Assembly: GCF_027125355.1 (NCBI RefSeq)
Contig: NZ_CP114052.1
Span: 682,001 to 746,000, forward strand
DNA length: 64,000 nt
Source: Peptostreptococcus equinus
GTDB taxonomy: Bacteria > Bacillota > Clostridia > Peptostreptococcales > Peptostreptococcaceae
Reading direction: 5' to 3'
Shown here: in pieces, positions 6,888 through 53,645 of the stretch
Layout: each line of letters opens with the position of its first letter
Position numbering within the stretch: position 1 is the first letter of the stretch
The notes under the pieces: model-generated
Seen by the model: only the letters and a program-made list of their open reading frames with translations
Databases searched by the model: none
What the model was told of the DNA's origin: nothing
Position numbers and translations under genes: made by a program

Positions 6888-7056
6888 ATAAAATAAAATA
6901 TTTAAATTATTTTGAGCAAAAAAATAAAAATGTTTTATTTGCTTAAAAAATATTTTATTTATTTAAAAAATATAGAATAAAATTTTAAAATATTTATTAT
7001 AATTAATAAATTTTATTAGATTTAAAAATAAAAACAATTTTGGAATACATAATATT

Positions 7057-7095
7057 AAAAAATTAGGGGTCAATATTTGACCTCTAATTTTTTAG
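7057..7095 (+). terminator. Hairpin with T-run after the zinc operon
   Basis: AAAAATTAGGGGTCAA (from 7057) pairs with TTGACCTCTAATTTTT (to 7092), loop TATT with one G-T pair. It sits about 170 nt after the permease and just before the DsbA-like gene. Confidence 0.8.
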
Positions 7096-7147
7096 ATATA
7101 TATGATAGGGTATAGTTATAATATGGATAAAGAAAGGAGAAGTAGTT

Positions 7148-7768
7148 ATGAAAATAGAATTTTTTCACGATGTGATATGTAGTTATTGTTTTCCTATGTC
7201 TGCTAGAATGAGAAAAATAGCTGAAAGATATGAAAATATTGAAATTATACATAGATCATTTGCGCTTGCTTGGAAAGATGAAGATTATATAAGGCAATTT
7301 GGCTCTAGAGAGGCAGTAAAAGATAAAGTAGTAAGTCATTGGCACTTGGCTAATGAAAACGATGATGAGCATAGAATGAATATAGAACAAATGAAAGATG
7401 CCGATTTTAATTTTCCATTGTCTAGGTCGGCACTTATAGCTTGCGAATCAGCTAGAAAAGTAGGTGGAGAAATAGCTTATTGGAATGCTTTTGATTCGAT
7501 ACAAAATAAATTATTTGTAGAAAGTAAAAATATTGAATCAGATAAAGTTCTTGAAGAAGCAATAATAAATGCTGGTATTGATAAAGATAAATGGATAAAA
7601 TTCTATAAGTCTCCTAGCACTGAAAGGGATGTACTAAAAGATATGGAATTATCTGACAAATACAATATAAACGTAGTGCCAACTCTTATAATAAATGGAG
7701 ATGTGATTTTAGCTGGTGCCCAATCTGAAATTATAATAGAGAATGTTATAAAGGATATGTTAAAATGA
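7148..7768 (+). CDS. DsbA-family thioredoxin-fold oxidoreductase (FrnE-like)
   Basis: 206 residues, a DsbA-like thioredoxin fold with an alpha-helical insertion. The redox pair is Cys11-Ser-Tyr-Cys14 in HDVICSYCFP, and the cis-proline loop is NVVPTLIING near residue 178. No signal peptide is visible, so this is a cytosolic FrnE/YwbO-type protein rather than a secreted disulfide oxidase. Likely thiol-disulfide chemistry or stress defence; the substrate is unknown. Start ATG 7148 with AAAGGAGAAG. Monocistronic between two hairpins. Confidence 0.85.
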   Translation: MKIEFFHDVICSYCFPMSARMRKIAERYENIEIIHRSFALAWKDEDYIRQFGSREAVKDKVVSHWHLANENDDEHRMNIEQMKDADFNFPLSRSALIACESARKVGGEIAYWNAFDSIQNKLFVESKNIESDKVLEEAIINAGIDKDKWIKFYKSPSTERDVLKDMELSDKYNINVVPTLIINGDVILAGAQSEIIIENVIKDMLK

Positions 7769-7785
7769 AATAATTATAAATAGAA

Positions 7786-7818
7786 ATTGACCAATAAATT
7801 GTAAATTATTGGTCAATA
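7786..7818. terminator. Bidirectional hairpin between convergent genes
   Basis: ATTGACCAATA (7786-7796) pairs with TATTGGTCAAT (7807-7817). It lies between the DsbA-like gene and the convergent DUF1877 gene; T-runs are modest on both sides. Confidence 0.6.
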
Positions 7819-7870
7819 TATTATTTATAAGACGTTATTTGTATAAATAAATTTTATCTAAAATTAATAA

Positions 7871-8350
7871 TTATATAATAGATACAACCACATTGTTGTT
7901 TTTCTCATAAGATGATTTATAAAAATCTTTTAATTTATAAAAATAATATTTGATGTCCTCAGCCATTTTTTCTCTATCTTGAGTCCATGTATTTGGATAT
8001 ATTTCATTTACTATAAAATCTTCAAAATCTACGTTTTTCAAAGCATTCTCTATATCATAGTGCTTTAAGTTTTTGTATATTAAACTAACACTGTAATTAT
8101 CAATATAGCTAATGTATTCATCTCCAATTATATTCTGTCCCAAAATTGCAACACTTAAAGGATTGTTCTTTATAATACTATTGGCAGGTTTTTTAGTAAA
8201 TAAAAAATGCAATCCATCCCAAAGCGTTTCAATATTTTCACTATTAAGGTCGTTTAAATCAATTGTTTCTAAAAATTCTAATTTATCTTCGCTATGTATT
8301 AGTTTATTTAATTCTTCGTTACTAACTTGCCTATATTCCGCTGTATACAT
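7871..8350 (-). CDS. YfbM/DUF1877 family protein
   Basis: 159 residues. The layout matches DUF1877: N-terminal EYRQVSNEELNKLI, a central LWDGLHFLFTKKP, then LSVAILGQNIIGDEYISYI, and near the end IYPNTWTQDREKMAEDIKYYFYKLKDFY. The family is cytosolic and of unknown function, and often occurs near contact-dependent toxin and immunity loci in other bacteria, but nothing of that kind is beside it here. The start ATG (8350) has a GGAGGG ribosome site. It is transcribed away from the secreted His-rich protein gene. Confidence 0.82.
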   Translation of the reverse strand: MYTAEYRQVSNEELNKLIHSEDKLEFLETIDLNDLNSENIETLWDGLHFLFTKKPANSIIKNNPLSVAILGQNIIGDEYISYIDNYSVSLIYKNLKHYDIENALKNVDFEDFIVNEIYPNTWTQDREKMAEDIKYYFYKLKDFYKSSYEKNNNVVVSII

Positions 8351-8568
8351 ATTAAACCCTCCATTTTAATTAATTAATATAATTATATAACATAAGTAGG
8401 AATATTCATATAATTTAATTAGATATAAAATAGAAAAAATTATGAATTTAAAAAATAAGAACTTCATCAAAAAGACATATTTTTGTTGATTTAAGTACAT
8501 TAAATGATTATATACTATGTTTACAGTTAAAATAAATTAACTGATGTATTTTAAAAAGGAGAGATAAA

Positions 8569-8994
8569 ATGAAGAGAAATATGAAATTAAAATTAAGTGG
8601 TGCTGTGATGATGTCAGTAGCATTAATGATGGGAACAAGTGCATTTGCTTCAGAAAATAATATAAGTCAGGTTTCAAGCAAAACAACTACAATACAGAAA
8701 TCTAACTGCGAAGTTAAAAATTGTGATGAAAAAGTGGATGGCAATACAAGCGCAAATTCAAATGGTGCAAAAAATAATAAAGGACATCATGGGCAAAAAA
8801 AACATGGTAAAGATAATAAGGAAAACAAAAACTGCGGTAATGGTGAAAATAAAAAAAATCATAATCATAAAAAAGAACACGAAAATTCAAACATGAAGGA
8901 TCATAAAGAAAAACATGGAAAAACAAATGAAAATAAGCATATGGATAAAGAAAAACAAAATAATGGACATATAGAAAATAAAGAAAATAAATAG
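8569..8994 (+). CDS. Secreted His/Lys/Asn-rich low-complexity protein
   Basis: 141 residues. A signal peptide (positive start, hydrophobic core LSGAVMMSVALMMG) ends with the cleavage site AFA-SE near residue 28. The mature part has almost no hydrophobic residues: it is made of Lys, Asn, His, Glu and Gly with many separated histidines and three cysteines, one pair being in NCEVKNCDEK. Such composition suggests an extracytoplasmic, disordered, metal-binding or anion-binding protein, but no family is recognised. AAAAAGGAGAGA ribosome site. Monocistronic. The zinc operon lies 1.7 kb upstream, which makes zinc or nickel binding an attractive guess only. Confidence 0.75.
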   Translation: MKRNMKLKLSGAVMMSVALMMGTSAFASENNISQVSSKTTTIQKSNCEVKNCDEKVDGNTSANSNGAKNNKGHHGQKKHGKDNKENKNCGNGENKKNHNHKKEHENSNMKDHKEKHGKTNENKHMDKEKQNNGHIENKENK

Positions 8995-9099
8995 AAAATT
9001 TTATTGTAAAAATATTTATTTAATATAAAATTTATATGAATTTGAAATGAAAAATATAAATCATATAAAATAGATTAATACCATAAAATATGTTAAAAA

Positions 9100-9127
9100 T
9101 ACCCCAAATTTATGTGGATTTGGGGTA
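9100..9127 (+). terminator. Hairpin after the His-rich protein gene
   Basis: TACCCCAAAT (9100-9109) pairs with ATTTGGGGTA (9118-9127). No T-run follows, so termination would be weak; it could also be a leader structure of the antiporter 72 nt downstream. Confidence 0.45.
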
Positions 9128-9199
9128 TAATAATAAGCATATAATAGAAGTTATAGTGAACTGTAAATGAAAAAAATATGAAGAGGTGTTTATGGTATT

Positions 9200-10390
9200 A
9201 TGGGTTACAATTATTTAATTAGTATTTCAATTATTTTATTATCTACAAAAATTTTGGGAGGCATAACAGAAAAAATAAGACTTCCACAGGTAGTAGGAGC
9301 ACTAGTTGCAGGTGTATTAATAGGCCCATCATTTTTAGGGATAGTAGACGATACGAGCTTTATCAATCAAGTAGCAGAGATTGGTGTAATAATTTTAATG
9401 TTTATGGCTGGTCTGGATACAGATATTAATCAATTAAAAAGAAGAGGAGTATCCTATTTAATAATTGCTATTTTTGGTGTATTAATACCTTTGATAGGAG
9501 GATTTATAACATATTTCCTATATTTCGGAGTTAATTTGAGTTCAAGTCAAGAACTTTTAAAAGCATTATTTGTAGGAGTTATACTAACTGCTACATCTGT
9601 ATCTATAACAGTAGAAGCTCTCAGAGAATTGGGAACTCTAAAAGGTAAGATAGGAAATTCAATATTAGGGGCAGCAATTTTGGATGATATTATAGGAATT
9701 GTAATACTTACTATTGTTACAAGTTTTAAAGATTCACATATTAGTATAAGTTCTGTACTCATAAAAATAGGACTTTATTTTGTGATAATAAGTGTATTTG
9801 GAATTTTAGTAGCGATAATAGCTAGCAAAATAGATATTAGAGTAGAGGAAAAGTTAAGAGCGATATATGTATTTGCTCTAGTATTAATAGTATCTTATTT
9901 GACAGAAGAATATGCAGGGATTGCCGATATTACAGGTGCTTATTTAACTGGTATAGTTTTTTGTCGTTATAGTATTAGAAATGAGTTGGTGGATAGGATG
10001 AGCACATTATCATTTTTATTCTTTTCACCTATATTCTTTGCCAGTATAGGTTTAAAAACAAATATAGAATCTTTTGATAGGCATATGTTAGTATTTACTA
10101 TTCTTCTTACTTTAGTAGCTATATTCACTAAAATGTTTGGTGCGGGACTAGGAGCAAAACTTTGTAAATATACAAACGCTGAAGCTTTAAATATAGGAGT
10201 GGGTATGGTGTCAAGAGGAGAGGTTGCCCTAATAATAGCTCAAAAAGGATTTAATTTAAATATAGTAGATAAGGATATGTTCTCACCTATTGTAATTATG
10301 ATTATTGTTACAACAGTAATAACGCCAATAATATTGAAATATTCTATGAAAAATGGTCAAGATAAATTATCTTTAAAGCAGGTTTCTTAA
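9200..10390 (+). CDS. Cation:proton antiporter, CPA2 family
   Basis: 396 residues and about twelve hydrophobic segments, matching the membrane domain of KefB/NapA-type exchangers without the C-terminal TrkA-N domain. Seen: LPQVVGALVAGVLIGP near residues 28-43, MAGLDTD near 73, the paired acidic residues Asp162-Asp163 in ILDDIIG (the DD pair of electrogenic Na+/H+ exchangers), and SRGEVALIIA near the end. Likely role is Na+ or K+ extrusion and pH homeostasis. It has its own terminator and is followed by a two-component system, which may or may not regulate it. Confidence 0.88.
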   Translation: MGYNYLISISIILLSTKILGGITEKIRLPQVVGALVAGVLIGPSFLGIVDDTSFINQVAEIGVIILMFMAGLDTDINQLKRRGVSYLIIAIFGVLIPLIGGFITYFLYFGVNLSSSQELLKALFVGVILTATSVSITVEALRELGTLKGKIGNSILGAAILDDIIGIVILTIVTSFKDSHISISSVLIKIGLYFVIISVFGILVAIIASKIDIRVEEKLRAIYVFALVLIVSYLTEEYAGIADITGAYLTGIVFCRYSIRNELVDRMSTLSFLFFSPIFFASIGLKTNIESFDRHMLVFTILLTLVAIFTKMFGAGLGAKLCKYTNAEALNIGVGMVSRGEVALIIAQKGFNLNIVDKDMFSPIVIMIIVTTVITPIILKYSMKNGQDKLSLKQVS

Positions 10391-10518
10391 GTTAGATAAA
10401 ACTATGGAAAAAATACTTATTAGAGTATTAATAAATGACAATTTTTAAATAAATTAGTTAAATTTATTTATATAGATTTGATTAATTCTTGCATAAAAAC
10501 TTTATATTTTATAAAATT

Positions 10519-10552
10519 AAAGTACAAGTATAAGTTATGCTTGTACTTTTTA
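10519..10552 (+). terminator. Rho-independent terminator after the antiporter
   Basis: AAAGTACAAG (10519-10528) pairs with CTTGTACTTT (10540-10549), followed by TTATA. It separates the antiporter from the two-component operon. Confidence 0.75.
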
Positions 10553-10574
10553 TAATTTGTCAAAGAGGTGTATT

Positions 10575-11249
10575 ATGATAAAAGCTTTGATAGTTGATGA
10601 TAATAAACAAATAACGGAAGTTTTAAAGAGTTTTGCGCTCAAAGAAGGAATACAAGTAGATTTAGCTTATGATGGTGAAGAAGCATGGAATAAGTTTCAA
10701 GATAATAAGTATGATATTTTATTGCTTGATATTATGATGCCAAAAATGGATGGCTATGAACTCCTAAAAAAAATTAGAAAAATATCTATGGTACCAGTAA
10801 TTTTAATAACTGCAAAAGGAGAGGATTACGAGAGGATTATGGGTTTAGATTATGGGGCTGATGATTATATAGTAAAACCATTTTCAGTAGCAGAGGTTAT
10901 GGCTAGAATAAGAGCTATCCTTAGAAGAATAGACATAGACACTAATTCTATAAAAGTAGTCAAAGTGGATAATCTTTATCTTAATCTAGATGAATATTCA
11001 TGTAAGTTAGATAATAAAGAAATACAATTGACAAAAAGAGAATTTGAAATATTGTGGATGTTGGCAGAAAATAAGGATAAAGTCTTTATAAGAGATAATA
11101 TTTTAGATAGTCTATGGGGAATGGAGTATTTTGGAGATACAAGAACAGTAGATACACATATAAAAAGACTAAGGGCAAAGTTGAACTCTGAGAAAAATAA
11201 GTGGCGCATTTCTACTGTTAGAGGAGTAGGATATAAGTTTGAGGTATAA
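10575..11249 (+). CDS. OmpR/PhoB-family response regulator
   Basis: 224 residues: receiver domain 1-115 with acidic pocket Asp8-Asp9, phosphoacceptor Asp52 in LLLDIMMPKMDG, switch Thr in LITAKG and Lys in IVKPFS, then a winged-helix DNA-binding domain (LTKREFEIL, VDTHIKRLRAKL, VRGVGYKF). It is a DNA-binding transcription regulator controlled by the histidine kinase encoded one base downstream. I chose ATG 10575 rather than the upstream TTG because AAGAGGTG at 10563-10570 then has normal spacing and the protein starts at the usual MIKALIVDD. Confidence 0.93.
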   Translation: MIKALIVDDNKQITEVLKSFALKEGIQVDLAYDGEEAWNKFQDNKYDILLLDIMMPKMDGYELLKKIRKISMVPVILITAKGEDYERIMGLDYGADDYIVKPFSVAEVMARIRAILRRIDIDTNSIKVVKVDNLYLNLDEYSCKLDNKEIQLTKREFEILWMLAENKDKVFIRDNILDSLWGMEYFGDTRTVDTHIKRLRAKLNSEKNKWRISTVRGVGYKFEV

Positions 11250-41522: not shown

Positions 41523-42194
41523 TTATCTAAAATTTTTTTCGCTGTCATAATCCTCTACATAATCTTCAGTTATAGATCTTTCCATTCTATTGATGTCATC
41601 TTCATTAACATATTTCTTTTCAACATCAATGTTTAGTGAATTAAGATTATCATTTAATTCTTTTCTATTTAATACATATCTTGTATTAGTTCTATTTTTA
41701 CCTAAATTTACCCAATTTACATACTTTAGAGCATCATTTTCTGTGAAGGCTTTCTTTAATTTATATAGATTAAATACTTTGGCCATAGAAGTAATAAAAA
41801 CAATAGCCAAAGTTATACCAATAGCATTAACAAATGCGATTGAACCAACTGTAGCGGCGGTAGAATAATCCTTAATCATAATGTTATAGACCATTTTATA
41901 TAGACCTATACCAGGTATTAATGGTAGTATGCCAGGTATTATTATTATTATTGCCGGTTGCTTTAATTTTCTTGCTAAGACCTCGGAACATATACTTACT
42001 ACGCAAGCTGATAAAAATGAATAAAGAGCAGGATTTTCTATATATTTAACGCCGAATAAATATACCATCCAGCTTAGACCTCCTACAGCTGCAACATATT
42101 TAAGTAACTTTTTAGGAGTATTGAAAAAAATCGAAAATCCAGCTGTCGCTAAAGCTGCAAATACGAAATGTTGCCATAATGGCATAGTTGTCAT
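41523..42194 (-). CDS. Threonine/serine exporter, small ThrE_2 subunit (YjjB-like)
   Basis: About 223 residues. Four to five TM segments (starting FVFAALATAGFSIFF) with the ThrE_2 pattern and the GILPLIPGIGLYKMVYNIM motif. A C-terminal cytosolic tail of about 80 residues is longer than usual (rich in Asn/Asp/Glu). With the next gene it forms the split ThrE exporter, probably for threonine, serine or a dicarboxylate. ATG 42194 is preferred over GTG 42203 because GGAGG inside the end of the partner gene then fits; 1-nt gap. Confidence 0.88.
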   Translation of the reverse strand: MTTMPLWQHFVFAALATAGFSIFFNTPKKLLKYVAAVGGLSWMVYLFGVKYIENPALYSFLSACVVSICSEVLARKLKQPAIIIIIPGILPLIPGIGLYKMVYNIMIKDYSTAATVGSIAFVNAIGITLAIVFITSMAKVFNLYKLKKAFTENDALKYVNWVNLGKNRTNTRYVLNRKELNDNLNSLNIDVEKKYVNEDDINRMERSITEDYVEDYDSEKNFR

Positions 42195-42195
42195 T

Positions 42196-42975
42196 TTATA
42201 CACCTCCTATTCCGAGTACTAGAGCCACGCCAGAAGCTATGGCAATCAATATCATAATAACTTCAAAAAATCTAGCAGTACCAGATACCAAATTACCAGA
42301 AATTAAATCACGTAGGGATTTAACAAAAGCAACTCCTGGCAGTAAAGGCATTATTGAACCAACTATCAATGTAGTTGGAGAATGAATTAGTTCTAAATTA
42401 TGAAGTATAAAACCAGATGAAGTAATTACGATTGAAGCTATTAAATGAGAGAAAATTATAATATTGCTATACTTCATAATCTGATCATATATATATGCAC
42501 TCAACATAGACGTGAATATTGTAAGAATAAATATATTTATTTCATTCCCACCAATCATAGCGGCAAAAAGTGCTGAAGCTAATCCAGTCGAAATGTAAAT
42601 TACTTTTGAAGAATAGCCCTTTAATTTATCTATTCTATGCAATTCCTCAATTTCTTCGTTCATATCTGGATCCACTTTGTTTACGAAATCTCTAGAAAAA
42701 CTATTTAAAAGTGATAATTTAGCTAGATTAATACCCCTGATATCTATAGTTTTCATAAAACATAAACCATCAAACTTATCATCAGAAAGAATAATAACAG
42801 TTGGTGTTGTAAAACAGTTTATGTGTGTATATCCTCTTGATTTACAAATTCTAAGTACACTATCTTCAACTCTATAAGTTTCAGCTCCATTTTTAATTAA
42901 GAGTTCGCCAAGAAAAAGTGCTAATTTTAGCGTTTGAATCTTGTAATCTTTGTCATCTAATCTGTTGACATTCAA
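42196..42975 (-). CDS. Threonine/serine exporter, ThrE domain subunit (YjjP-like)
   Basis: 259 residues from a TTG start with GGAGGTAATAATT. A soluble N-terminal part contains ALFLGELLIKNGAETYRVEDSVLRIC, which is conserved in ThrE; about five TM segments follow, with the SIMPLLPGVAFVKSLRDLISGN motif near the end. Upstream partner of the YjjB-like gene, with which it is translationally coupled. The pair resembles YjjP/YjjB, reported to export succinate in E. coli, so substrate assignment remains open. Confidence 0.88.
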   Translation of the reverse strand: MNVNRLDDKDYKIQTLKLALFLGELLIKNGAETYRVEDSVLRICKSRGYTHINCFTTPTVIILSDDKFDGLCFMKTIDIRGINLAKLSLLNSFSRDFVNKVDPDMNEEIEELHRIDKLKGYSSKVIYISTGLASALFAAMIGGNEINIFILTIFTSMLSAYIYDQIMKYSNIIIFSHLIASIVITSSGFILHNLELIHSPTTLIVGSIMPLLPGVAFVKSLRDLISGNLVSGTARFFEVIMILIAIASGVALVLGIGGV

Positions 42976-43179
42976 AATTATTACCTCCATTTTATTTATT
43001 GCAAAAAAAGAATTCATATATTTATTATGTAAAACATAATAGATTTATGAATGCTTGAATTGGATAAGAACATAATACATCAAATACTTGGAAATGTATA
43101 GGGGAATTTCTTTAATATATGTAAAATTATACTTAAAATAAATTAAGGTTGGTGTTTTATAATAATTTAAAAAGTAAGA

Positions 43180-43965
43180 GTGGTGAATGTTATCGTAAAG
43201 AAAAATATTAAAAAGACCTATGGTCGGCAATATAATACAAAAACTAGTAATTCAGTCAAAAATAAGAAAAGAAATTCTTATACTTATAATGACAATAAAA
43301 TAAAAAAAACTAAATATAAGAAGAAAAAATATAGGAAAAAAACTAGTAAAGCAAAAATACTTTTTTTCATTATATTCCTATCAGTAATTTTATTGATTGT
43401 ATTTTCTGTATTCAGAAATATTGACAATGAATATAAAGAAAGTAATCAAATAAATCAAAAGAATATGACAAAAGAAGAATTTATAAAAAATATAGAAGAA
43501 ATTTCTATTTCAGAATATAGGAGAAGTGGAATATTACCTTCAATTACTATTTCACAGGCAATAATTGAGTCTAACTGGGGACAGTCAAAATTAACCCAAA
43601 AAGCAAATAATCTTTTTGGTATTAAATATTCAAATAATTGGAGAGGTGGCTATGTAATATTTAGCACAGGAGAGAATTATAATGATGTAATTAATGCAAA
43701 ATTTAGAAAGTATAATTCATGGGAAGAAAGCATTGAAGATCATACTAATTTCTTGTTGAACAATAAAAGATATAAAAATGCGGGTATTTTTAAAAGTAAG
43801 GATTATAAAGTGCAGGCTCAAGCTTTAGAAGATGGTGGATATGCTACGACTAAGAATGTAAAAGGTGAAAAAATATATGCAGAAAAATTGATAGATGCAA
43901 TAGAGAAATATAAACTATATGAAATTGATAAAAAAGTAGTAGGTAGAAGTTTTTTTGATAGATAA
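43180..43965 (+). CDS. Membrane-anchored N-acetylglucosaminidase (mannosyl-glycoprotein endo-N-acetylglucosaminidase-like)
   Basis: 261 residues. A very basic cytoplasmic N-terminus of about 55 residues (Lys/Asn/Arg/Tyr-rich), one TM segment (about 58-80), then a glucosaminidase (LytG/FlgJ-type, GH73-like) domain: PSITISQAIIESNWGQSKLTQKANNLFGIK with the catalytic Glu, GYVIFSTGENYNDVINAKFRKYNSWEESIEDH, and LEDGGYATTKNVKGEKIYAEKL. It cuts peptidoglycan glycan strands outside the cell. The start codon is uncertain: GTG at 43180 or the adjacent 43183; no clear ribosome site. Confidence 0.85.
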   Translation: MVNVIVKKNIKKTYGRQYNTKTSNSVKNKKRNSYTYNDNKIKKTKYKKKKYRKKTSKAKILFFIIFLSVILLIVFSVFRNIDNEYKESNQINQKNMTKEEFIKNIEEISISEYRRSGILPSITISQAIIESNWGQSKLTQKANNLFGIKYSNNWRGGYVIFSTGENYNDVINAKFRKYNSWEESIEDHTNFLLNNKRYKNAGIFKSKDYKVQAQALEDGGYATTKNVKGEKIYAEKLIDAIEKYKLYEIDKKVVGRSFFDR

Positions 43966-44008
43966 ATTTTTATATTAAAATAAGAAGAAATATGATAGAA
44001 TAATAAAA

Positions 44009-44334
44009 GAGTATAGCAGATAATCGCAGGTAGAAATACGTGAGGAAAGTCGGAGCTCCATAGAGCAGGGTGCTAGGTAACGCCTAGTGAGAGCGATCTT
44101 AAGGATAGTGCAACAGAAATAAACCGCCATTTTGGTAAGGATGGAAAGGCGAGGTAAGAGCTCACCAGCACATAGGTGACTATGTGGCTATGTAAACCCC
44201 ACCTGGAGCAAGGCCAAAGTAGGAATAAGGAGTGTTGCTCGCACTTCCCGGTAGGTAGGCCGCTTGAATTTATTGGTGACAATAAATCTAGAAAGATGAT
44301 TATCTAATACAGAACTCCGCTTATAGCTATGCTC
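44009..44334 (+). ncRNA. rnpB: RNase P RNA
   Basis: Contains the universally conserved blocks: GAGGAAAGTCGGAGCTCC, GCTAGGTAACGCCTAG, CAACAGAAATAAACCGCC, TAAGAGCTCACCAGC and the 3' region ACAGAACTCCGCTTATAGC. The ends GAGTATAGC (44009-44017) and GCTATGCTC (44326-44334) pair as helix P1, which fixes the limits. It cuts the 5' leader of pre-tRNA. A terminator follows at 44349-44380. The next gene is the SPOR protein gene. Confidence 0.95.
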
Positions 44335-44348
44335 CCATTTGGAAATTT

Positions 44349-44380
44349 AGTCAACTTGAAAAATCGAGTTGACTTTTTTA
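44349..44380 (+). terminator. Terminator of rnpB
   Basis: AGTCAACTTG (44349-44358) pairs with CGAGTTGACT (44365-44374), followed by a T-run. Confidence 0.85.
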
Positions 44381-44532
44381 TTGAGTAAATAAATTGATCT
44401 ATTATTTTATAAATTAATAAGTAAGTTTATTTGTAAATAATGGTATTAAAAGTATAATATATGATATAATAAAATGTGATAAAATAATGATTTTCTGAAG
44501 AAAATTAAAACTCGATTAAAGGAGTGAAAGAT

Positions 44533-47500
44533 TTGAACAATAAAATTGGTAGAGAATTAATTTCACTTGCTGTAAGTGAAGCGGATGAAAAATATATAAA
44601 TAGAAAATACGAAATAAATTCAGAATTAAATAAGGGTTTAAAGGTTAAATATGAAAGAGTAGGTAAAGATGAGGAAAAGTATATTGAAATATTAAGATAC
44701 AATATAATTTTTTATAAATCAATTATCAAGAAATTAGAGTCAATTTTGGATTTGTGGATTCAAAATGATGTTATTTTTAATACTGAGTCTATAGAAAAGA
44801 ATATAAATAATATAACAAACTCATCAAGAGAGTATGTTAATAAGGCTATGAAAAATGGCAATGAGTATTTGAATGATAAAGATAAAAAAATATTTTTGTC
44901 TTATGATAGGACTAGCGGTTTAAAAAGAATTGAAAAGATTGAAAATGATTATAAAATATTAAATCTTTATAAAGACATATTGGCCATGGTTATCAGCGTT
45001 ATATCATCTGATGTACTGAAATTTAGTCCGATTTTGGAAATGAGTACAGAATCAGCTAAAATAGATGTTATGAATGAGATATTTAAAAAAATAAATGAGA
45101 TTTTATTTACTACAGAATCTCCAACAGTTGAATTTAAGGATCAGGCTTTGGTTGATGATGAAAATATGCAACTTGATAGCTTGGTTGATGAAGAAAAATG
45201 CAATAGCTTTTTAAAATATGTGGCAATGATTTCTGCACCAGAAATTTCAGTAAAAATAAATGATGTTTTTAGAGATTGTACAAAAATAGAAGAAATAGAA
45301 GAAGATGCTGCATATAAATTTCCAGAACCGAGAAAGGAATATATTTCTTGCGTTGCTTTGCTAATGGATTACATTACTCCTAGTAAGAAAAAGATGTTTA
45401 TGAATGCATTTAGAATGTATGTTGTAGGATTGATAAGTCCAAATCAATTTGAGGCTTTAATTGAAAGGTTAATTAGAAATCATACATTTATAGATAAATC
45501 AACTTGGGTTAATTCTCAAAGAGTAGTAAATGCAGCTTTTAATATGGAGAATAGCAAGTTTTTTGGGCAAAGATATTTAGAAGATAGTACTGAGGATTTG
45601 AATGTAACTCAGAGTTTGAATATTGTAGAAACGAATGAAAGCGATAGCCCAATTAAGTCTTTATTTGAAAAAAATAAAGAAAGAGATATAGATAATCAAG
45701 AAAATCATAAATTTGGAAAAAGCGTATTAAGTAAATTTACTGGTTTCACTGATAAGTTTAGAACACCTGATGATGAGTCTTATGAAAGTTATGAAAATAA
45801 CGATTATGAAGATGATGATTATGACTATGATAGCAGAAAGTCAGGAGTGGCCAGTAAATTGAGTGGATTTTTCAAGTTAAATAAAGATAAAGATGATTAT
45901 GAAGATGATGACTATGATGAATTTGAAGAATATGATGATGACGAAAAATTTGATTCGTATAAAGAATTTGAAAATACTTTAATTAAAAATATAAAAACTG
46001 GTGATAATGCTATTCAAGATGAGAATGCTATTGCGATACTAAAGCTCAGAGAACAGAGTAGAAAGCAGGAAATTGAAAATCTTAGGCGTGAAATTAGTTC
46101 TTTGAAAAAAGAGCGTGCTCTAGCTGAAAAAATATCTAAACATGGTATGTCAGCTTTTAAGGATAATCCAGAATTAGAATATAGTGAAGAAGACTATGCT
46201 TATGTTAAACGCTCAAGTATGTCTCAAAGAGAGAGCGATTTATTTGATGATACAATTGAGGGACAAATTTCAATATTTGAATTGGAAAATCTAGAAAGTC
46301 CAGTTGATTCATATATAGGTGAAGAAAATAAAATTACTGACATAGAAAAAATAGAAAATGAAATGGACCAAATTGATAGCGAAAATGATATGTTTAAACC
46401 TATATTAGGTAGAACTCAAAGGTTAAATTTAGAGGCTATTAAAAATCACGGTTTAAAAAATAAAAAGAATAATTCATCAACTGATAATATCCGCATAAAT
46501 TACGAGAATGACAACAAAAGTATAGTGCAAAATCCTCTAGATGATCATATTAACAAAGATGACAAAAAAAATAATATTGACAATACTGATAGTATCAATA
46601 TACGTTCTGATTTTAAAATAGATGGTGAAACAGGGGTAACTCCAATAATTACACCACAAAATTCAGTAGATTATAAAGTGGAATTAGAAGATAGTTCTAA
46701 TAAGGAAAATTATAATAATAAAGAGATAAATAATGATATTGATTTAGAGTCTAATACTAGAAATAAAAATGAGCGAGTATTAGATAAGAATCAATCACAT
46801 AAAACAAGTGAGGAAGAAAAAATATCTGATTCAGAGGAACAGGATAAGTATCTGAAGGAAAATTCTTTTGAAGAATTAGAATTATTGAAATCTATGAAAG
46901 CGAATGATGTATATAATATTACACCTCCAGTTGCTGATATTGCTAAAATCGAAAAGGATATGACTACAAAAATTGATGATGTCAAGTTATCAACTACAAA
47001 AACAATGGTTGTGGATAAGGCAATGATTGAAGAACTCAACTCAAAAAAGACTGATTATGAGTTTTCTAAATCATACTTAGAAGATAAAAAAATTGATAAT
47101 GATCAATTTATTGATAACTTAGATATTGATAATGAAGAGTATAAAGAAACAAATAATAAATCAGGATTGAAAAATAAGTTATTTAGTTTTTTTGTTGATA
47201 GAGAAGAAGTAAACGAATCACTTTCAAATGGAGATGACTCTCATGCATTTAATGAAGTTGAAGAAAATGATGAAGATTATTTAAATGATAAAGAAATTAA
47301 ATATAAAACAGATGTAGATTATGCTGAGAATTCTAAGGCTAATGAGTTATTGTCGAAAATGACAAAAGTGGATAACTCTTATAAACCTAAAGATAAAAAA
47401 TTAAAATTAAACAAGTCTAAAAAGTCACTTCCACTAATGAATAGAAATAAAAGTTTAAGAACTAGAATAAAAAAAGAAGAAGGATATTTGAAAGATAGCA

Positions 47501-48180
47501 ATTTATCAAAGAAAAAGCTTGCTAGAGACTTAATAATAATATTGCTTATATTAGTGCTAATATTCTTTGCTTATATAAAAATAATTAGTAGTTTTAATTT
47601 ACCAAGCGTAGAGGAGACTAATAATAAAGTTAAACATTCAAAAACAATTGGCAAAAATACTGACTCACAAATAGAAAATCCATCAAAAATTTCTGAAAAA
47701 ACTACTTCAGAAAAAGAAAATAATTCTGCTGAGAAAAAAGCATCTTCGCTTGATAGAAAAGCAGAGCAATATAAAAATGGAAAAGGTAAGTATTATGTAG
47801 TCTTTATTGGTGCTACGAATAATAAAGATTCGGCAGAAAGTGAACAAAATAATTTTGCAAATAAGGGTATAAATGCAAAAATAATTAGGAATAGTGGATA
47901 TTATATGCTAAAGAGCGGTGACTATTTGGATTATAATAAAGCTAATGCTGACTCTGTGAAATTAACAAATAAAGGTATTCAAAATTATGTGGTTGCAATG
48001 GATAAGTATTACGACTTGAAAATTCAGGCATTTGAAACAAGGATACCAACTTTAAGTGCTGAACAGTTAAAAACTGATTATGACGATATAAAAAATCAAT
48101 TATTATCTACAGGTAAAAATGCAGGATATGTTAAGAATTTAGATGAGATTTACGAAAAAGCTTTAAAAGAAAAACAATAG
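44533..48180 (+). CDS. Giant SPOR-domain single-pass membrane protein
   Basis: 1215 residues from TTG 44533 (AAAGGAG at 44518-44524). The first about 340 residues are helical and unrecognised. From about 370 to 990 the protein is Asp/Glu/Asn/Lys-rich and probably disordered, with three short related amphipathic segments: SKFTGF, SKLSGFF and NKLFSFF. One TM segment (LIIILLILVLIFFAYIKII, about 1000-1022) leads to a linker and an extracellular SPOR domain near 1085-1150 (KYYVVFIGATNNKDSAESEQ, GYYMLKSGDYLDYNKANADSV). SPOR domains bind denuded septal glycan. The N-in topology fits a division or septum factor, but this architecture is not one I recognise. Confidence 0.7.
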   Translation: MNNKIGRELISLAVSEADEKYINRKYEINSELNKGLKVKYERVGKDEEKYIEILRYNIIFYKSIIKKLESILDLWIQNDVIFNTESIEKNINNITNSSREYVNKAMKNGNEYLNDKDKKIFLSYDRTSGLKRIEKIENDYKILNLYKDILAMVISVISSDVLKFSPILEMSTESAKIDVMNEIFKKINEILFTTESPTVEFKDQALVDDENMQLDSLVDEEKCNSFLKYVAMISAPEISVKINDVFRDCTKIEEIEEDAAYKFPEPRKEYISCVALLMDYITPSKKKMFMNAFRMYVVGLISPNQFEALIERLIRNHTFIDKSTWVNSQRVVNAAFNMENSKFFGQRYLEDSTEDLNVTQSLNIVETNESDSPIKSLFEKNKERDIDNQENHKFGKSVLSKFTGFTDKFRTPDDESYESYENNDYEDDDYDYDSRKSGVASKLSGFFKLNKDKDDYEDDDYDEFEEYDDDEKFDSYKEFENTLIKNIKTGDNAIQDENAIAILKLREQSRKQEIENLRREISSLKKERALAEKISKHGMSAFKDNPELEYSEEDYAYVKRSSMSQRESDLFDDTIEGQISIFELENLESPVDSYIGEENKITDIEKIENEMDQIDSENDMFKPILGRTQRLNLEAIKNHGLKNKKNNSSTDNIRINYENDNKSIVQNPLDDHINKDDKKNNIDNTDSINIRSDFKIDGETGVTPIITPQNSVDYKVELEDSSNKENYNNKEINNDIDLESNTRNKNERVLDKNQSHKTSEEEKISDSEEQDKYLKENSFEELELLKSMKANDVYNITPPVADIAKIEKDMTTKIDDVKLSTTKTMVVDKAMIEELNSKKTDYEFSKSYLEDKKIDNDQFIDNLDIDNEEYKETNNKSGLKNKLFSFFVDREEVNESLSNGDDSHAFNEVEENDEDYLNDKEIKYKTDVDYAENSKANELLSKMTKVDNSYKPKDKKLKLNKSKKSLPLMNRNKSLRTRIKKEEGYLKDSNLSKKKLARDLIIILLILVLIFFAYIKIISSFNLPSVEETNNKVKHSKTIGKNTDSQIENPSKISEKTTSEKENNSAEKKASSLDRKAEQYKNGKGKYYVVFIGATNNKDSAESEQNNFANKGINAKIIRNSGYYMLKSGDYLDYNKANADSVKLTNKGIQNYVVAMDKYYDLKIQAFETRIPTLSAEQLKTDYDDIKNQLLSTGKNAGYVKNLDEIYEKALKEKQ

Positions 48181-48193
48181 AGGGGGTATTACC

Positions 48194-50176
48194 TTGTTGA
48201 AAGAAAATGAAAAGATAATTTTCGAAATGGAGTCTGGATATAATTTGATTGGATTAGAACAATTCAATTTAGAAAATATGTGCTTACAATTTACAAACCT
48301 TGGAAACATTTATGTTTCCAAGGTTGATTCTTTAGATGAAGTTTCATACTTTATTATGTACAATTATGAAGAACATAGAAAAAAATTATATTCTGAATTA
48401 GATGAAAATAATGTCAATGTAGTGAGTTCAAATATGCCATTTGAAATACATGATAACGGTAGAGTTTTTAATATAAATCTTAATTTGATTATTGTTTTGG
48501 ATATTGAGGAATTTATTCAAATAAAAGACAATATAGATGAATTTATTTTTATATTTAACGAAGGTAAGAGTCTTTTTATTTTAGATGGTGAAGATTACTA
48601 TGTAGGTTATATAGAATTAAAGGATAGAATATTAAATTTATTTAATGATGATAATAAATTTGAAGTGGAATATACAGAGATAAGCGATTTTAATTTCAAT
48701 AGAAATTTAATGAAATTAGGAGGATTTTTCTGCTTTAAAAATAATAAAAATATAGTTAAAAAGATAGATGTTATAGGAGCTTTTGATTCAGATTTTAAGA
48801 GACAAATAGCTAGTAAAACTAATAACAATAAGAAAATTTTAAATGAATTATATTATGATGTACTTGTATATACTGAAATAGACGCTAAAATTGAATCTAA
48901 AAGATATAAATCTAAAAAAGTATATATATTCTTAAAGGGTGATAAATATCTGATTTTTGATAAAGAAAGTAAATCTAGTATTTGGGAAATGAATAAAAAT
49001 AGCTTGTCTAAAATTATGTTAAATGAAAAAAAATACCTTATATTTGATGGTAAAAATTTTATTAGCCTTAATATTGATTCCGATCAAGCAGACAATTTGA
49101 AATTTAGTTTACTTAAAAACATAAATGAGAAAAAGTTGGCTTTTACTCTTAAGCAAAATCCAATATTTATTGAATCAAAAGACGAAGAGTTAAATATTTC
49201 AAGTATAGATGGCGTTAAATTACTTTCTATAGATAAAAATACTATTTCTGATATTAAAATTTATCATTCTAAACTATTATGTCATTTAGATTATTTTTTG
49301 ATAGAAGTTATATATTCAGATAAATTAGTTAAATTCTATGTGAAAAAAGCTTTTGCTGAAACAATATTGATTCAATCGTTTGAGCATTATCATAATACGA
49401 TATTAAATGATGCAAGTTTGGAAGATATATATGAAAATTGGACTAAGTCAGTAGCCGATATGGTTATTTTTAATTATTTCTCAGATATATATCTAATGAT
49501 GTCCAATATTATAGGAACAGATTTTCGGGTCTTTGACGATCATAAAAAGGTTGAATTATTAAATTCAATATATAAGAGAGTAAATAATGAATTAGTTGAG
49601 TTGGATAAGACAACTATTTATTTATCAGAGGTTTTGAGAAAAAATGAGATAAATTATTTTAAATCAATAGGTAAGGATCCGGATCTTAATTTGATAAATG
49701 AGTTAGAAAGAACTTTTTTTGATATTAGGAATGATATAGGTCTTGATTTAACACAGATGGTAAATATTATAGCAAATTCAAGAAACTTTATAGGTGTGTT
49801 TACTGCCAATCAAGGTTTATTAAAAACATATGAAGATGATAATGAAAAGATAATATTTGATGAAATAGATACAATTGCAAATAAATTAGAGCATTTTTAT
49901 TATGATATGCTACCTCATTATATAGGAAGAATTTTAAGACAAGTATTTATAAGCTATAGAGACTTATATAAAAATTATTCCGATATAGATGGTTTAGAAC
50001 TTAAAAAAGAGTTGCTAGAGAGATTGAGAATAAACTATGTATACAAGCAATTTTCTACTGAGACAAAAGATAGCATAATAAGAAAAAAAATTATTGATGA
50101 TTTATATTCATTGATGAAATTCTCTAATATGAAATTAGAAAGTGAATATTATTTTTCAGGTGGTTATAGAAAGTAG
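48194..50176 (+). CDS. Unrecognised 660-residue protein in the SPOR operon
   Basis: 660 residues, TTG start with GAGGGGG. No signal peptide and no TM segment; cytosolic. The N-terminal two thirds are strand-rich, with several modules of similar spacing (KVYIFLKGDKYLIFDKES near 243-260; ELNISSIDGVKLLSIDKNTISDIKIY near 333-358; LIEVIYSDKLVKFYVKK near 370-386) that read like repeated small beta domains of PH-like type. The last 230 residues are helical (YIGRILRQVFISYRDLYKNY). No catalytic motif is visible. It starts 13 nt after the SPOR gene, so it is very probably co-transcribed and functionally linked. Confidence 0.6.
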   Translation: MLKENEKIIFEMESGYNLIGLEQFNLENMCLQFTNLGNIYVSKVDSLDEVSYFIMYNYEEHRKKLYSELDENNVNVVSSNMPFEIHDNGRVFNINLNLIIVLDIEEFIQIKDNIDEFIFIFNEGKSLFILDGEDYYVGYIELKDRILNLFNDDNKFEVEYTEISDFNFNRNLMKLGGFFCFKNNKNIVKKIDVIGAFDSDFKRQIASKTNNNKKILNELYYDVLVYTEIDAKIESKRYKSKKVYIFLKGDKYLIFDKESKSSIWEMNKNSLSKIMLNEKKYLIFDGKNFISLNIDSDQADNLKFSLLKNINEKKLAFTLKQNPIFIESKDEELNISSIDGVKLLSIDKNTISDIKIYHSKLLCHLDYFLIEVIYSDKLVKFYVKKAFAETILIQSFEHYHNTILNDASLEDIYENWTKSVADMVIFNYFSDIYLMMSNIIGTDFRVFDDHKKVELLNSIYKRVNNELVELDKTTIYLSEVLRKNEINYFKSIGKDPDLNLINELERTFFDIRNDIGLDLTQMVNIIANSRNFIGVFTANQGLLKTYEDDNEKIIFDEIDTIANKLEHFYYDMLPHYIGRILRQVFISYRDLYKNYSDIDGLELKKELLERLRINYVYKQFSTETKDSIIRKKIIDDLYSLMKFSNMKLESEYYFSGGYRK

Positions 50177-50182
50177 GCAAAT

Positions 50183-50311
50183 ATGTTAGTAAATGATATA
50201 TTAAATAAAGATTATAAATTTTGTGATTTTGAAGAAAGACCGAAAAGCGTTATTTATAAAGAAGTTGACTTAGATATGTTATTAGAGGAAAATGAAATAG
50301 AAGAGAATTAA
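50183..50311 (+). CDS. 42-residue ORF in the SPOR operon
   Basis: ATG 50183 to TAA 50311, 42 residues, no TM segment. Begins MLVNDILNKDYKFCDFEERP and ends with an acidic run (LLEENEIEEN). It starts 6 nt after the 660-residue protein and ends 10 nt before galE, with only a weak upstream AGG, so translational coupling is likely. Its acidic C-terminus echoes that of a small binding or regulatory peptide; no family recognised. Confidence 0.55.
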   Translation: MLVNDILNKDYKFCDFEERPKSVIYKEVDLDMLLEENEIEEN

Positions 50312-50321
50312 GGAGAATATT

Positions 50322-51359
50322 ATGAGAGACACTAAAAGCATACTTTTAGCAGGAGGTGCTGGATATATAGGAAGTCATATATGTGTTGAATTATTGAATA
50401 GAGATAATAAATATAAGGTAATAGTTGTGGATAATTTTTCAAATTCTAATCCCAAAGTATTAGATAGGATAAAGGATATAACTGGTAAAGATGTAAAGTT
50501 TTATGAAATTGACACTAGATCTAACGAGCTTGAAAAGGTGTTTAAAGAAAATAAAATTGATGCTGTAATAGATTTGGCTGCATATAAAGCTGTTGGAGAT
50601 TCAGTAAAAAATCCATTGAAATATTACAATAATAATTTGATATCACAAATGAATATGTTGTTACTAATGAAAAAATACTCAGTAAATAACTTTGTATTTT
50701 CATCATCTGCAACAGTTTATGGAGAGGTAAAAGCAGATGAACTTCCAATAAATGAAAATCATCCAACTTCTACTACTAATCCATATGGGAGCACTAAGTT
50801 AATGGGAGAACAAATTCTACAAGATTGTTCAATATCAGATCCAGATTTTAACTGTATAGTACTCAGATATTTTAATCCAATAGGTGCTCATGAGTCAGGA
50901 AAAATTGGAGAAGAGGCTATAGGTATTCCTGCAAATGTAATGCCATATATTACAAAAGTTGCTATAGGAGAATTGCCATATTTAAATATATTTGGTAATG
51001 ATTATGATACTATAGATGGTACAGGTGTAAGGGATTATATACATGTAGTTGACCTTGCAAAGGGTCATGTAAAGGCCCTTGAAAGATTATTGAATAATAG
51101 GATAGGAATAGAGTATTTTAATTTAGGTGCTGGCAAAGGCTTTAGTGTATTAGAATTGATTCACGCCTTTTCAAGAGCGTATGGCAAGCAAATAGAATAT
51201 AAAATAGTAGATAGAAGACCAGGGGATGCAGCCATTATTTATGCAGATCCTAGTAAGGCTAAAGATATATTAAATTGGCAGGTTGAATACAGTTTGGATG
51301 ATATGTGTAGAGATTCTTGGAATTGGCAAAGTAAAAATCCTAATGGGTATAATATATAA
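50322..51359 (+). CDS. galE: UDP-glucose 4-epimerase
   Basis: 345 residues, extended SDR fold. NAD-binding GGAGYIGSHI near 11-20, SSSATVYGE, and the catalytic YxxxK in NPYGSTKLM. FNPIGAHESGKIGE is the sugar-binding loop. Interconverts UDP-glucose and UDP-galactose (possibly the N-acetyl forms), providing galactosyl residues for envelope glycans. AAGGAGAATATT before ATG; placed 10 nt after the 42-residue ORF. Confidence 0.95.
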   Translation: MRDTKSILLAGGAGYIGSHICVELLNRDNKYKVIVVDNFSNSNPKVLDRIKDITGKDVKFYEIDTRSNELEKVFKENKIDAVIDLAAYKAVGDSVKNPLKYYNNNLISQMNMLLLMKKYSVNNFVFSSSATVYGEVKADELPINENHPTSTTNPYGSTKLMGEQILQDCSISDPDFNCIVLRYFNPIGAHESGKIGEEAIGIPANVMPYITKVAIGELPYLNIFGNDYDTIDGTGVRDYIHVVDLAKGHVKALERLLNNRIGIEYFNLGAGKGFSVLELIHAFSRAYGKQIEYKIVDRRPGDAAIIYADPSKAKDILNWQVEYSLDDMCRDSWNWQSKNPNGYNI

Positions 51360-51387
51360 TATATAGTAGAACGAAAGGAATAAATTT

Positions 51388-52488
51388 ATGTATAAAAAAT
51401 TGCTGTATTTATTTCTAGTATTTATTATGTGTTTTACAAATACGGCATGTTCTAAATTTAGTAATAAAGATAATAAGAATACTCAAATAAGCAAAAAAGC
51501 AAAATACACAGTATATATGCCAAAGGATAGTATATTGGATAATAGAATTATTAAGGATAAAGAAGTCGCTATAAATTATCTAGAAAAAAAAGATAAATAT
51601 GGAAATGATGATGTAGATAAGATTGTTAACAATGTGGATAAAAATGTAAGAGTATTGATAATTAGTTCAAATTCACCGGGACTCTTAAAGGCATTTGAAA
51701 AAATAAAAGAAAAAATTCCTGGATTAGTTACAGTAGCAATTGACCTTCCAGAATTAGATAATAATAAAAATTTATCATCTAAAAAAAATAAAAGTGTTGA
51801 AATATCACTATCATCACAAGAAAATACAGGTGGTCTTAATGCGGCAAAGTTCGCAAAATCTATGGGGGCGAAGGAGTTTTTGTATCTTTCTCTTAATAAT
51901 TCACCTCGACCATTTGAATATGAAGATATTGAAGAAGTAGAAAATTTTTGTAAATTAAATGGTATGAAATTTACAAATGCTAAAATTGAATCTAATGCTA
52001 TGAATGGAAAAATTAATGAAAATATAAATAATATTTTTTCTAAAGGAAAAGAATTAGCTGTATTTCCTGCAAGTCCTGAATTATCTGAACTTGTATTCGA
52101 TAATGCTATTAGATATAAGTATATAGTGCCTAATTTAAACTCTAATAATGATGGGCTACTTTTGTCTAAAAAATTTAATTTGGAAAAATCATATGAATTA
52201 AATAATTCAAAATCATATTCAAATGATTTACAAAAAAAGATTGAATCTATGGGACTAAAAGATAGACTAGGGTTGATACCTGAAGGAAAAAGCAATATAT
52301 TGATTGGATTAGTAATTAAGTCTCATCAATATATGTATAAGAATAGATTTGAATTAGAAGAATCTTTTTCAAATATAAATTTATCAAATAGACTTCAAGA
52401 AGAATATGGATATATGTCTAAAATTTATAAAATTAATCCTTCTATAACAATAAATAAGACAATAAAAATATTGCCTAGAATATATTAA
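51388..52488 (+). CDS. DUF3798-like binding-protein lipoprotein
   Basis: 366 residues. Lipobox NTACS (Cys21 or so). The order of segments, RVLIISSNSPGLLKAFEKIKEKIPG, then NTGGLNAAKFAKSMGAKEFLYLS, and a third KELAVFPASPELSELVFDNA, matches the two-lobed periplasmic-binding fold of DUF3798/BMP-like lipoproteins. It probably binds a small ligand outside the membrane, but there is no ABC permease or ATPase next to it. Followed by a divergent paralogue with a ribosome-site-only gap. Confidence 0.55.
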   Translation: MYKKLLYLFLVFIMCFTNTACSKFSNKDNKNTQISKKAKYTVYMPKDSILDNRIIKDKEVAINYLEKKDKYGNDDVDKIVNNVDKNVRVLIISSNSPGLLKAFEKIKEKIPGLVTVAIDLPELDNNKNLSSKKNKSVEISLSSQENTGGLNAAKFAKSMGAKEFLYLSLNNSPRPFEYEDIEEVENFCKLNGMKFTNAKIESNAMNGKINENINNIFSKGKELAVFPASPELSELVFDNAIRYKYIVPNLNSNNDGLLLSKKFNLEKSYELNNSKSYSNDLQKKIESMGLKDRLGLIPEGKSNILIGLVIKSHQYMYKNRFELEESFSNINLSNRLQEEYGYMSKIYKINPSITINKTIKILPRIY

Positions 52489-52499
52489 GGAGGTATAAG

Positions 52500-53645
52500 T
52501 TGCATAATAAAATAATTAAAAAACTTTGTTCACTTGTCCTTATATGTTCCCTAGGATTGAGTGCTTGCTCTAAAAAAGACAAGGATAAAGAGGAGAGCGT
52601 AGCAAATTCGAAAGCAGATATTTATTCTAAAATCGTATTAATAAGTGATAAGAATGATATAAATATAAATGATAATATTAAGGATTATGAAAAAGAAATA
52701 AAAAAATATAAGGAAGAGAATAAGGATATTAAATTCGATATTGAAAATATTATTATAGATTCCAATACTATAGGTAAGGAAAACTTCAATAAGATAATAA
52801 ATGATAATAAAATTAAGTCAGTAATATTTGTAGACAATAAATATGATGTAAAAGAAATTGCAAGATCTATAAAGGAAAAGAGAAGAGATATACTTACTAT
52901 TTCAAGCGGAATTGAAGATAAAGAAGAAGTATTATCTAAAACATTTGATTTAAATTTTAATGTATCATATGATAATTATTTTAAAAATGGTGTTCAAACC
53001 ATAAAAAGTTATGGAATTGATAGATTTATATATTTATCCTCAGATAGTAATAATGATGGTTCAATAAAAAAAGCGATAGAAGAAAACTGTAAAAAAATAG
53101 AACTTCCTTTTGAAGATATTAAGATTGACACAGCTAATGATAAAGTTGATATGCAGGCAAATCTTGTATATAAAATCAATTATTTACTAGATAAGTATTC
53201 AAATAATATTGCAATATATCCTAGTGATTCTAATATGAATGAAGTATTGCTTAGTATGGTTACAAACGAAAAATTTTTCATAGCAGGTTTTTCAAATTAT
53301 AATATTACAAAGGAAGCCGTAGATTTATATGGTATAAGGAATTTAAGTATTCATACTAATTCTTATAATATTTTAAATGCTAAAATTAGCAATTTTTACA
53401 AGGATAATGAAACAAACTCTAAAGTTTATGCAAGACCGACAAGTAATGAGTATTGTTTAGTAAGATATCCAAGTGAGCTTTCCATAGCTATGAGTACAAA
53501 ACAAAAACCTTTAAGGGTTGCTTATAATAGAGAATATCTAGAAGAGGTGGCAAATGTAAGATCAAACCTTTCATTAGCTATTGATAGAGTAAATGACAAA
53601 TATAAAAATAATTATATAATTAAATTTGATAATATAGTATATTAA
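52500..53645 (+). CDS. Second DUF3798-like binding-protein lipoprotein
   Basis: 381 residues, TTG start with AAGGAGGTATAAG. Lipobox LSACS. The same two-lobe outline as the preceding protein (IKSVIFVDNKYDVKEIARSIKEKRRDI, YFKNGVQTIKSYGIDRFIYLS, NIAIYPSDSNMNEVLLSMV) but low identity and more Lys/Asn-rich. The ligand is unknown; expected at the outer face of the membrane. The pair suggests an ancient tandem duplication in the operon. Confidence 0.5.
   Translation: MHNKIIKKLCSLVLICSLGLSACSKKDKDKEESVANSKADIYSKIVLISDKNDININDNIKDYEKEIKKYKEENKDIKFDIENIIIDSNTIGKENFNKIINDNKIKSVIFVDNKYDVKEIARSIKEKRRDILTISSGIEDKEEVLSKTFDLNFNVSYDNYFKNGVQTIKSYGIDRFIYLSSDSNNDGSIKKAIEENCKKIELPFEDIKIDTANDKVDMQANLVYKINYLLDKYSNNIAIYPSDSNMNEVLLSMVTNEKFFIAGFSNYNITKEAVDLYGIRNLSIHTNSYNILNAKISNFYKDNETNSKVYARPTSNEYCLVRYPSELSIAMSTKQKPLRVAYNREYLEEVANVRSNLSLAIDRVNDKYKNNYIIKFDNIVY

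Follow-up and report, generated by a model that had tools for sequence, protein, structure and literature searches.

A probable MldABC-type cell-division operon in Peptostreptococcus equinus

Introduction

What is the function of three closely spaced genes that follow rnpB, the gene for the RNase P RNA, in the genome of Peptostreptococcus equinus? The genes lie in the 64,000-nucleotide stretch of DNA analyzed here, which we call the window (RefSeq assembly GCF_027125355.1, contig NZ_CP114052.1, positions 682,001 to 746,000, forward strand). An initial annotation correctly described an open reading frame (ORF) of 1215 amino acids (aa) with a SPOR domain, followed after 13 nucleotides (nt) by one of 660 aa and after a further 6 nt by one of 42 aa. 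Its view that these are unrecognized partners outside any described system has to be given up, because a homologous system, MldABC, has already been published for Clostridioides difficile. We consider it very probable that the three genes form the MldABC-type cell-division operon of Peptostreptococcus, and that their products constitute a scaffold which extends from the cytoplasm to the wall and reads denuded glycan at the septum. The genes are, with coordinates referring to the window:

44533..48180, + strand: ORF A, homologue of MldA, 1215 aa, TTG start behind AGGAG
48194..50176, + strand: ORF B, homologue of MldB, 660 aa from a TTG start, no hydrophobic segment
50183..50311, + strand: ORF C, shortened MldC-type protein, 42 aa

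In C. difficile, MldA, MldB, and MldC are reported at the midcell division site (PMC12548448), which makes the earlier proposal of a cytoplasm-to-wall protein, probably at division sites, a reasonable one. The three proteins have been called unique to C. difficile and its close relatives (PMC10693644; also PMC5727935).

Results

ORF A and ORF B are homologues of the first two genes of the C. difficile operon

Since all 30 direct matches to the ORF A product were at least 920 aa long, the characterized relative was reached via an intermediate homologue. This intermediate, from a metagenome-assembled genome labeled 'Clostridioides sp.' (L006), has shorter A and B homologues followed by galE, and its A protein matches 57 proteins, at least 23 of which are named as C. 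difficile. Published MldA (CD2717) carries a phosphosite at S573 within the peptide SVVIPIK (PMC9674922). This peptide occurs in nine of the 97 proteins that we collected and lies at position 573 in two of them, P0064 and P0085. P0064 has 847 aa and is named as a C. difficile protein; because the serine of its peptide is residue 573, precisely the published position, we identify P0064 as MldA. The A product of a C. difficile genome (G004) is 99.6% identical to P0064 and has the same serine at residue 573.

ORF A aligns with P0064 over residues 21-347 (26% identity, E 1e-36) and again over residues 1078-1211 (39% identity, E 2e-27). Judged by these alignments, it is homologous to C. difficile MldA over both folded parts. 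The novelty that the initial annotation had attached to the 1215-residue protein is thereby lost, as it belongs with a published midcell protein. Between these two stretches the protein varies freely, giving 1215 aa in the window and 847 aa in P0064. A multiple alignment of A homologues (A5) covered 50 of the 87 proteins found. The protein may be called giant by its length, but the 368 residues that it has in excess of C. difficile MldA are chiefly linker.

ORF B aligns from end to end with the second gene of the C. difficile genome G004 (26.4% identity over 670 columns, E 3e-70) and, by this alignment, is a homologue of the gene adjoining mldA in that species.

A and B are found in the same genomes and always side by side

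Among 71 genomes of the family Peptostreptococcaceae, an MldA profile matches 29. Two weak, SPOR-sized matches, in G015 (E 1.4e-5) and G028 (E 8.4e-5), were not counted as MldA, leaving 27. An MldB profile likewise matches 27 of the 71 genomes, from 6 of the 23 genera. Both sets consist of the same 27 genomes, and in every one A and B are adjacent on one strand, so that the linkage proposed earlier for two co-conserved genes of one operon stands. In 393 genomes drawn from the order, MldB was found in 27, all belonging to this family, and in none of the 366 others. The Mld division system is hence no peculiarity of C. difficile.

In 26 genomes, the window's genome included, MldA bears SPOR, and in every one of them the SPOR family has exactly one match, located at MldA. 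The remaining Mld genome, G067, has no SPOR match. Its Mld-type operon (L074, positions 6397-10822) encodes an outer YARHG domain (79.1 bits) replacing SPOR, and its MldC-type protein contains DxDxDG-like repeats with weak EF-hand matches below the cut-off.

ORF C encodes an MldC-type protein

In the C. difficile genome, the third gene is an acidic ORF of 106 aa that shares 11 nt with the end of B. From 11 N-termini of MldC, all belonging to genera other than the window's, we derived a profile and searched it against 1528 ORFs of at least 25 aa from the window and seven same-genus loci. ORF C ranked first of the 1528 (E 2.1e-6), and directly below it came its equivalents from six of the seven same-genus loci. 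The equivalent in the seventh, L005, stayed at background with this profile (E 0.35) and matches ORF C directly (61% over 23 residues, E 1.3e-7). ORF C carries the motif Y-x-F-L-x-L ... E-x-DLD of the C. difficile-type third gene. It ends after this motif, whereas five of seven same-genus relatives keep a short end, DEDNxxEIxDxDxxxKxx; the relative in L004 is shortened as ORF C is. A spurious ORF C was rejected, given that a profile excluding its own genus ranks it first. Merely listed in the initial annotation, ORF C is present as stated and proves to be a conserved third member. Long homologues of both ORF A and ORF B exist in other species; together with the conservation of C, this makes the locus more than a chance arrangement.

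MldC-type sequence follows B or is fused to it in 26 of the 27 Mld genomes, 22 being recognized by the motif and four (G007, G033, G024, and G042, the last being the genome of the L005 locus) by inspection. In all five genomes of one genus (g9), the B frame is extended and measures 777 to 861 aa. The extension is MldC-like in four of them and has diverged in G025, which retains the first half of the motif alone. This fusion argues that MldB and MldC would act together physically.

Domain architecture of the MldA and MldB homologues

The regions assigned within ORF A and ORF B are as follows:

44533..45567, + strand: ORF A residues 1-345, N-terminal cytoplasmic helical region (identity to C. 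difficile MldA; model of the L002 homologue)
45568..47517, + strand: ORF A residues 346-995, acidic variable linker with a helix-forming stretch inside (composition; L002 model)
47530..47586, + strand: ORF A residues 1000-1018, transmembrane helix (hydropathy; helix 696-722 of the L002 model)
47785..47994, + strand: ORF A residues 1085-1154, extracellular SPOR domain (PF05036)
47995..48177, + strand: ORF A residues 1155-1215, conserved helical tail after SPOR (alignment; L002 model)
48194..49417, + strand: ORF B residues about 1-408, beta-rich half (predicted model)
49418..50122, + strand: ORF B residues about 409-643, C-terminal helical half (model)

The listed frame of ORF A begins with GTG and spans 44524-48180 (1218 aa). 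We rejected this start, as it overlaps the AGGAG motif; the TTG at 44533 lies behind the motif and gives 1215 aa. A single strong hydrophobic segment (residues 1000-1018, mean 3.23) and a linker with 24% aspartate plus glutamate and 28.6% hydrophobic residues bear out the initial description of a single-pass protein with a long acidic cytoplasmic part. A weak hydrophobic segment (residues 149-167; 1.71) falls within the helical N-terminal region. In the structure model of the L002 homologue, which is 49% identical, helices extend over the N-terminal region, the predicted local distance difference test score (pLDDT) is low across most of the part matching the linker except for helix 491-530, and the tail comprises helices 867-882, 885-900, and 906-922. 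The SPOR domain of ORF A scores 31.1 bits with PF05036 (E 3e-7; curated cut-off 21), and the SPOR fold was also recovered. No other Pfam or NCBIfam match exceeded its cut-off in A, B, or C.

The model of MldB, based on an alignment of 12 rows (A3; P0007 and P0010 left out), is rich in strands over residues 1-384 and helical from 385 to 643. The earlier characterization of this protein as strand-rich thus fits its first part but not its second. Four beta units are modeled at about residues 1-118, 119-214, 219-309, and 311-408; structure matches of the PH-like type were obtained for the second to fourth of these, with the PH superfold predicted over about residues 124-407. MldB is accordingly predicted to consist of several PH-like domains in a row and a bundle of helices. 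Ransom and colleagues reportedly described two predicted coiled coils in MldB in 2014, and MldC as having no known domains. The modeled helical half of MldB (residues 409-643) is in keeping with such coiled coils. We rejected a membrane role for MldB, which has no hydrophobic segment, and a recognizable enzyme role, as no Pfam or NCBIfam family was matched at E up to 1. In G003, the single genome of genus g3 (L075, positions 4743-6230), MldB is shortened to 495 aa, with roughly the first 200 residues absent.

Genomic neighborhood of the operon

The operon is flanked by the following elements:

44008..44339, + strand: rnpB, RNase P RNA of class A (Rfam RF00010, 277.5 bits), an upstream landmark outside the operon
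44349..44374, + strand: hairpin with T run resembling an intrinsic terminator, between rnpB and the operon
44431..44458, + strand: candidate sigma-70-type promoter of the operon, TTGTAA-16-TATAAT (consensus match only)
50322..51359, + strand: galE-like gene, a frequent neighbor, not assigned to the Mld system

The candidate terminator and promoter between rnpB and ORF A suggest that the operon may be transcribed separately from rnpB. In the scanned region as a whole, neither promoter-like sites (80; mean of shuffles 75.2, standard deviation 8.5) nor terminator-like hairpins (2; mean of shuffles 1.4) exceeded shuffled sequences. In an Rfam search covering eight of 18 loci, rnpB precedes A by 223 to 310 nt in six, including C. 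difficile (L068), and was not found in L070 and L074.

At the other end, galE follows ORF C after 10 nt. A galE homologue lies downstream of the Mld genes in all seven named loci and, irrespective of position, is present in 10 of 12 fetched regions, the exceptions being L071 and L072 (L077 repeats L006, and L079 repeats L004). Two tandem genes for DUF3798 lipoprotein-like proteins come after galE (window 51388-53645) and are also paired in the Peptostreptococcus loci L073 and L079. Just upstream of rnpB, a glucosaminidase gene (window 43219-43965; PF01832, 118.7 bits) has homologues in five of the seven named loci, and its product may therefore be a septal hydrolase partner of Mld.

Discussion

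A probable mechanism and its limits

MldA would span the membrane with its helical region and long acidic tether inside and with SPOR and the helical tail outside. If SPOR binds septal glycan stripped of stem peptides, MldA would gather where amidases split the septum. MldB, with its predicted PH-like chain and helical half, and the small acidic MldC could constitute a cytoplasmic platform that joins MldA to the divisome. MldABC would in this way connect the condition of the septal wall with the divisome in the cytoplasm and help cells to constrict and separate properly.

Several points weigh against this assignment. Identity between the window proteins and those of C. difficile amounts to just 26 to 39%. 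ORF C stops after the motif, where the 106-aa protein continues with an acidic C-terminal half, and we therefore call it MldC-type and not a full MldC. The second and third genes are called MldB and MldC by their order in the operon, only MldA being tied to a published protein by sequence. The reported localization is that of the C. difficile proteins, and binding of denuded glycan is a putative property of the SPOR domain in the window. The phenotype is ambiguous as well: according to PMC12140426, MldA or MldB 'promote chaining' in C. difficile by mechanisms that are unknown, yet the same sentence asks whether decreased levels of MldA and MldB cause inefficient separation. In 2014, Ransom and colleagues are said to have described mld mutants as curved and inefficient in separation.

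What does the MldABC system do at the septum?

Scaffolding, activation of synthesis as by FtsN, and coupling to splitting as by FtsEX are alternative outputs of one and the same MldABC system. A mainly passive scaffold for shape and septum, with SPOR as just an address label, is a reading that we can entertain tentatively. The acidic tether, the predicted PH-like string, and the helical half all look scaffold-like, and SPOR is the sole family match above cut-off in the three proteins. In C. difficile, however, a double kinase mutant leaves MldA unphosphorylated, and a phosphatase mutant shows increased phosphorylation of it (PMC9674922), and this dependence on Ser/Thr kinases suggests that the protein is regulated.

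It seems somewhat unlikely that MldA activates septal peptidoglycan synthesis in the manner of FtsN, through the bifunctional PBP1 and in bacteria that have neither FtsA nor FtsN. A published discussion suggests that MldA of C. difficile regulates septal synthesis by PBP1 (PMC10693644), and ORF A has an FtsN-like outline. It also gives a weak match to the ftsN profile over the stretch 917-1154, but the score of 30.1 bits is far below the equivalog cut-off of TIGR02223 (107.65). Here and below, the counts for ftsA, FtsX, and FtsE refer to the best match per genome among the matches listed. The window's genome has no match to the whole ftsA profile (best 62.6 bits, positions 161-346), as this reading would expect. 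The ftsA cut-off, however, is passed by none of the 71 family genomes, with or without Mld, and matches of at least 94 bits along the profile occur in five genomes, all of them without Mld. Mld presence does not simply track the loss of FtsA, and we rejected Mld as a simple answer to this loss.

We regard as improbable that Mld is a lineage-specific, non-homologous substitute for FtsEX, i.e., that this lineage lost FtsEX, which in other bacteria couples division to cell-wall hydrolases, and that MldABC assumed the coupling at least in part. The SPOR protein would then sense denuded glycan, the product of amidases, and the PH-like string with its acidic cofactor would relay this state to the divisome. 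FtsX exceeds its cut-off (250-314 bits) in 36 of the 71 genomes, whereas the best score in the other 35 is 53 bits; FtsE reaches at least 262 bits in the same 36 genomes, 28 of which pass the curated FtsE cut-off, and the next score is 230 bits. In the window's genome, the best matches are 31 bits for FtsX (cut-off 225) and 219 bits for an FtsE-like protein (cut-off 264.85). FtsEX is absent from all 26 genomes with a SPOR-bearing MldA, in each of which MldA is the only SPOR match, and present in 36 of the 45 others. Counted by system, one genome has both Mld and FtsEX, 26 have Mld alone, 35 FtsEX alone, and nine neither (Fisher test, p 9e-11), and the sole genome with both is G067, whose MldA-type protein carries YARHG in place of SPOR. 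A substitution would explain this distribution, and C. difficile is likewise stated to be without FtsEX (PMC12140426).

Phylogeny, however, confounds the pattern. An RpoB tree covered 63 of the 71 genomes, as RpoB was not matched in G013, G017, G019, G020, G031, G034, or G068 and was a fragment in G025. On this tree, Mld requires four changes and FtsEX five, and the independent pairs are too few for a test (sign test, p 1). Because it rests on so few evolutionary events, we treat the pattern as suggestive only, a lead and not a result. The nine genomes without either system also speak against a substitution. They belong to two genera (G014-G017, G026-G029, and G031); among them, G017 is 85% and G031 75% complete. 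We know of no mechanism by which MldA would activate a hydrolase. Against a full substitute, Mld-bearing C. difficile is described as coordinating division and separation just loosely, which is blamed on the missing FtsEX (PMC12140426).

That A and B are neighbors by chance and ORF C is spurious is hardly worth entertaining, for although 32 ORFs of at least 40 aa overlap 42000-53500, most on other strands or frames, so that a lone 42-aa ORF means little, the adjacency in all 27 genomes, the first rank of ORF C, and the B-C fusions oppose it.

Significance

Beyond assigning the MldABC-type operon, this work adds a predicted structural outline of MldB, the identification of the tiny third gene, and an idea of why these bacteria manage without FtsEX. 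The literature searched on MldABC, which included few subscription papers and no bioRxiv preprints, contained neither a structure of MldB nor a comparison of Mld and FtsEX distributions that we saw. A replacement of FtsEX, if true, would reveal how bacteria can exchange the apparatus by which the building of a septum is coupled to its splitting.

Comparison with known systems

The tandem PH-like proteins Rtt106, the FACT subunits, and the PH-PTB part of IRS-1 resemble MldB in its predicted fold over about residues 124-407. No sequence relation is apparent, and the histone-binding and signaling roles of those proteins are not implied for MldB.

FtsN, DamX, DedD, RlpA, and other SPOR proteins have a SPOR domain of the same fold as MldA, and FtsN, DamX, and DedD also have a single-pass layout. 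In contrast, no match to these proteins was obtained for the N-terminal helices of MldA, its acidic tether, or the helical tail. With FtsEX, Mld shares the proposed role alone, that of linking the divisome to the splitting of the septal wall; FtsEX is an ATP-binding cassette transporter, whereas Mld is not.

The YARHG variant of G067 resembles the window in the MldA N-terminal region, the membrane helix, an MldB-type protein of 705 aa, and an acidic MldC-type protein of 182 aa. It differs from the window in having YARHG instead of SPOR, in the presence of FtsEX, and in the position of galE upstream.

The closest counterpart is MldABC of C. difficile, where homologous first and second genes stand in the same order, followed by an MldC-type third ORF and, further downstream, galE, with rnpB upstream. 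The two loci differ in the spacing between A and B (122 nt in C. difficile, 13 nt in the window) and in the length of the MldC-type ORF (106 and 42 aa, respectively). The MldABC operon of P. equinus is a new member of a known system, not a new system.

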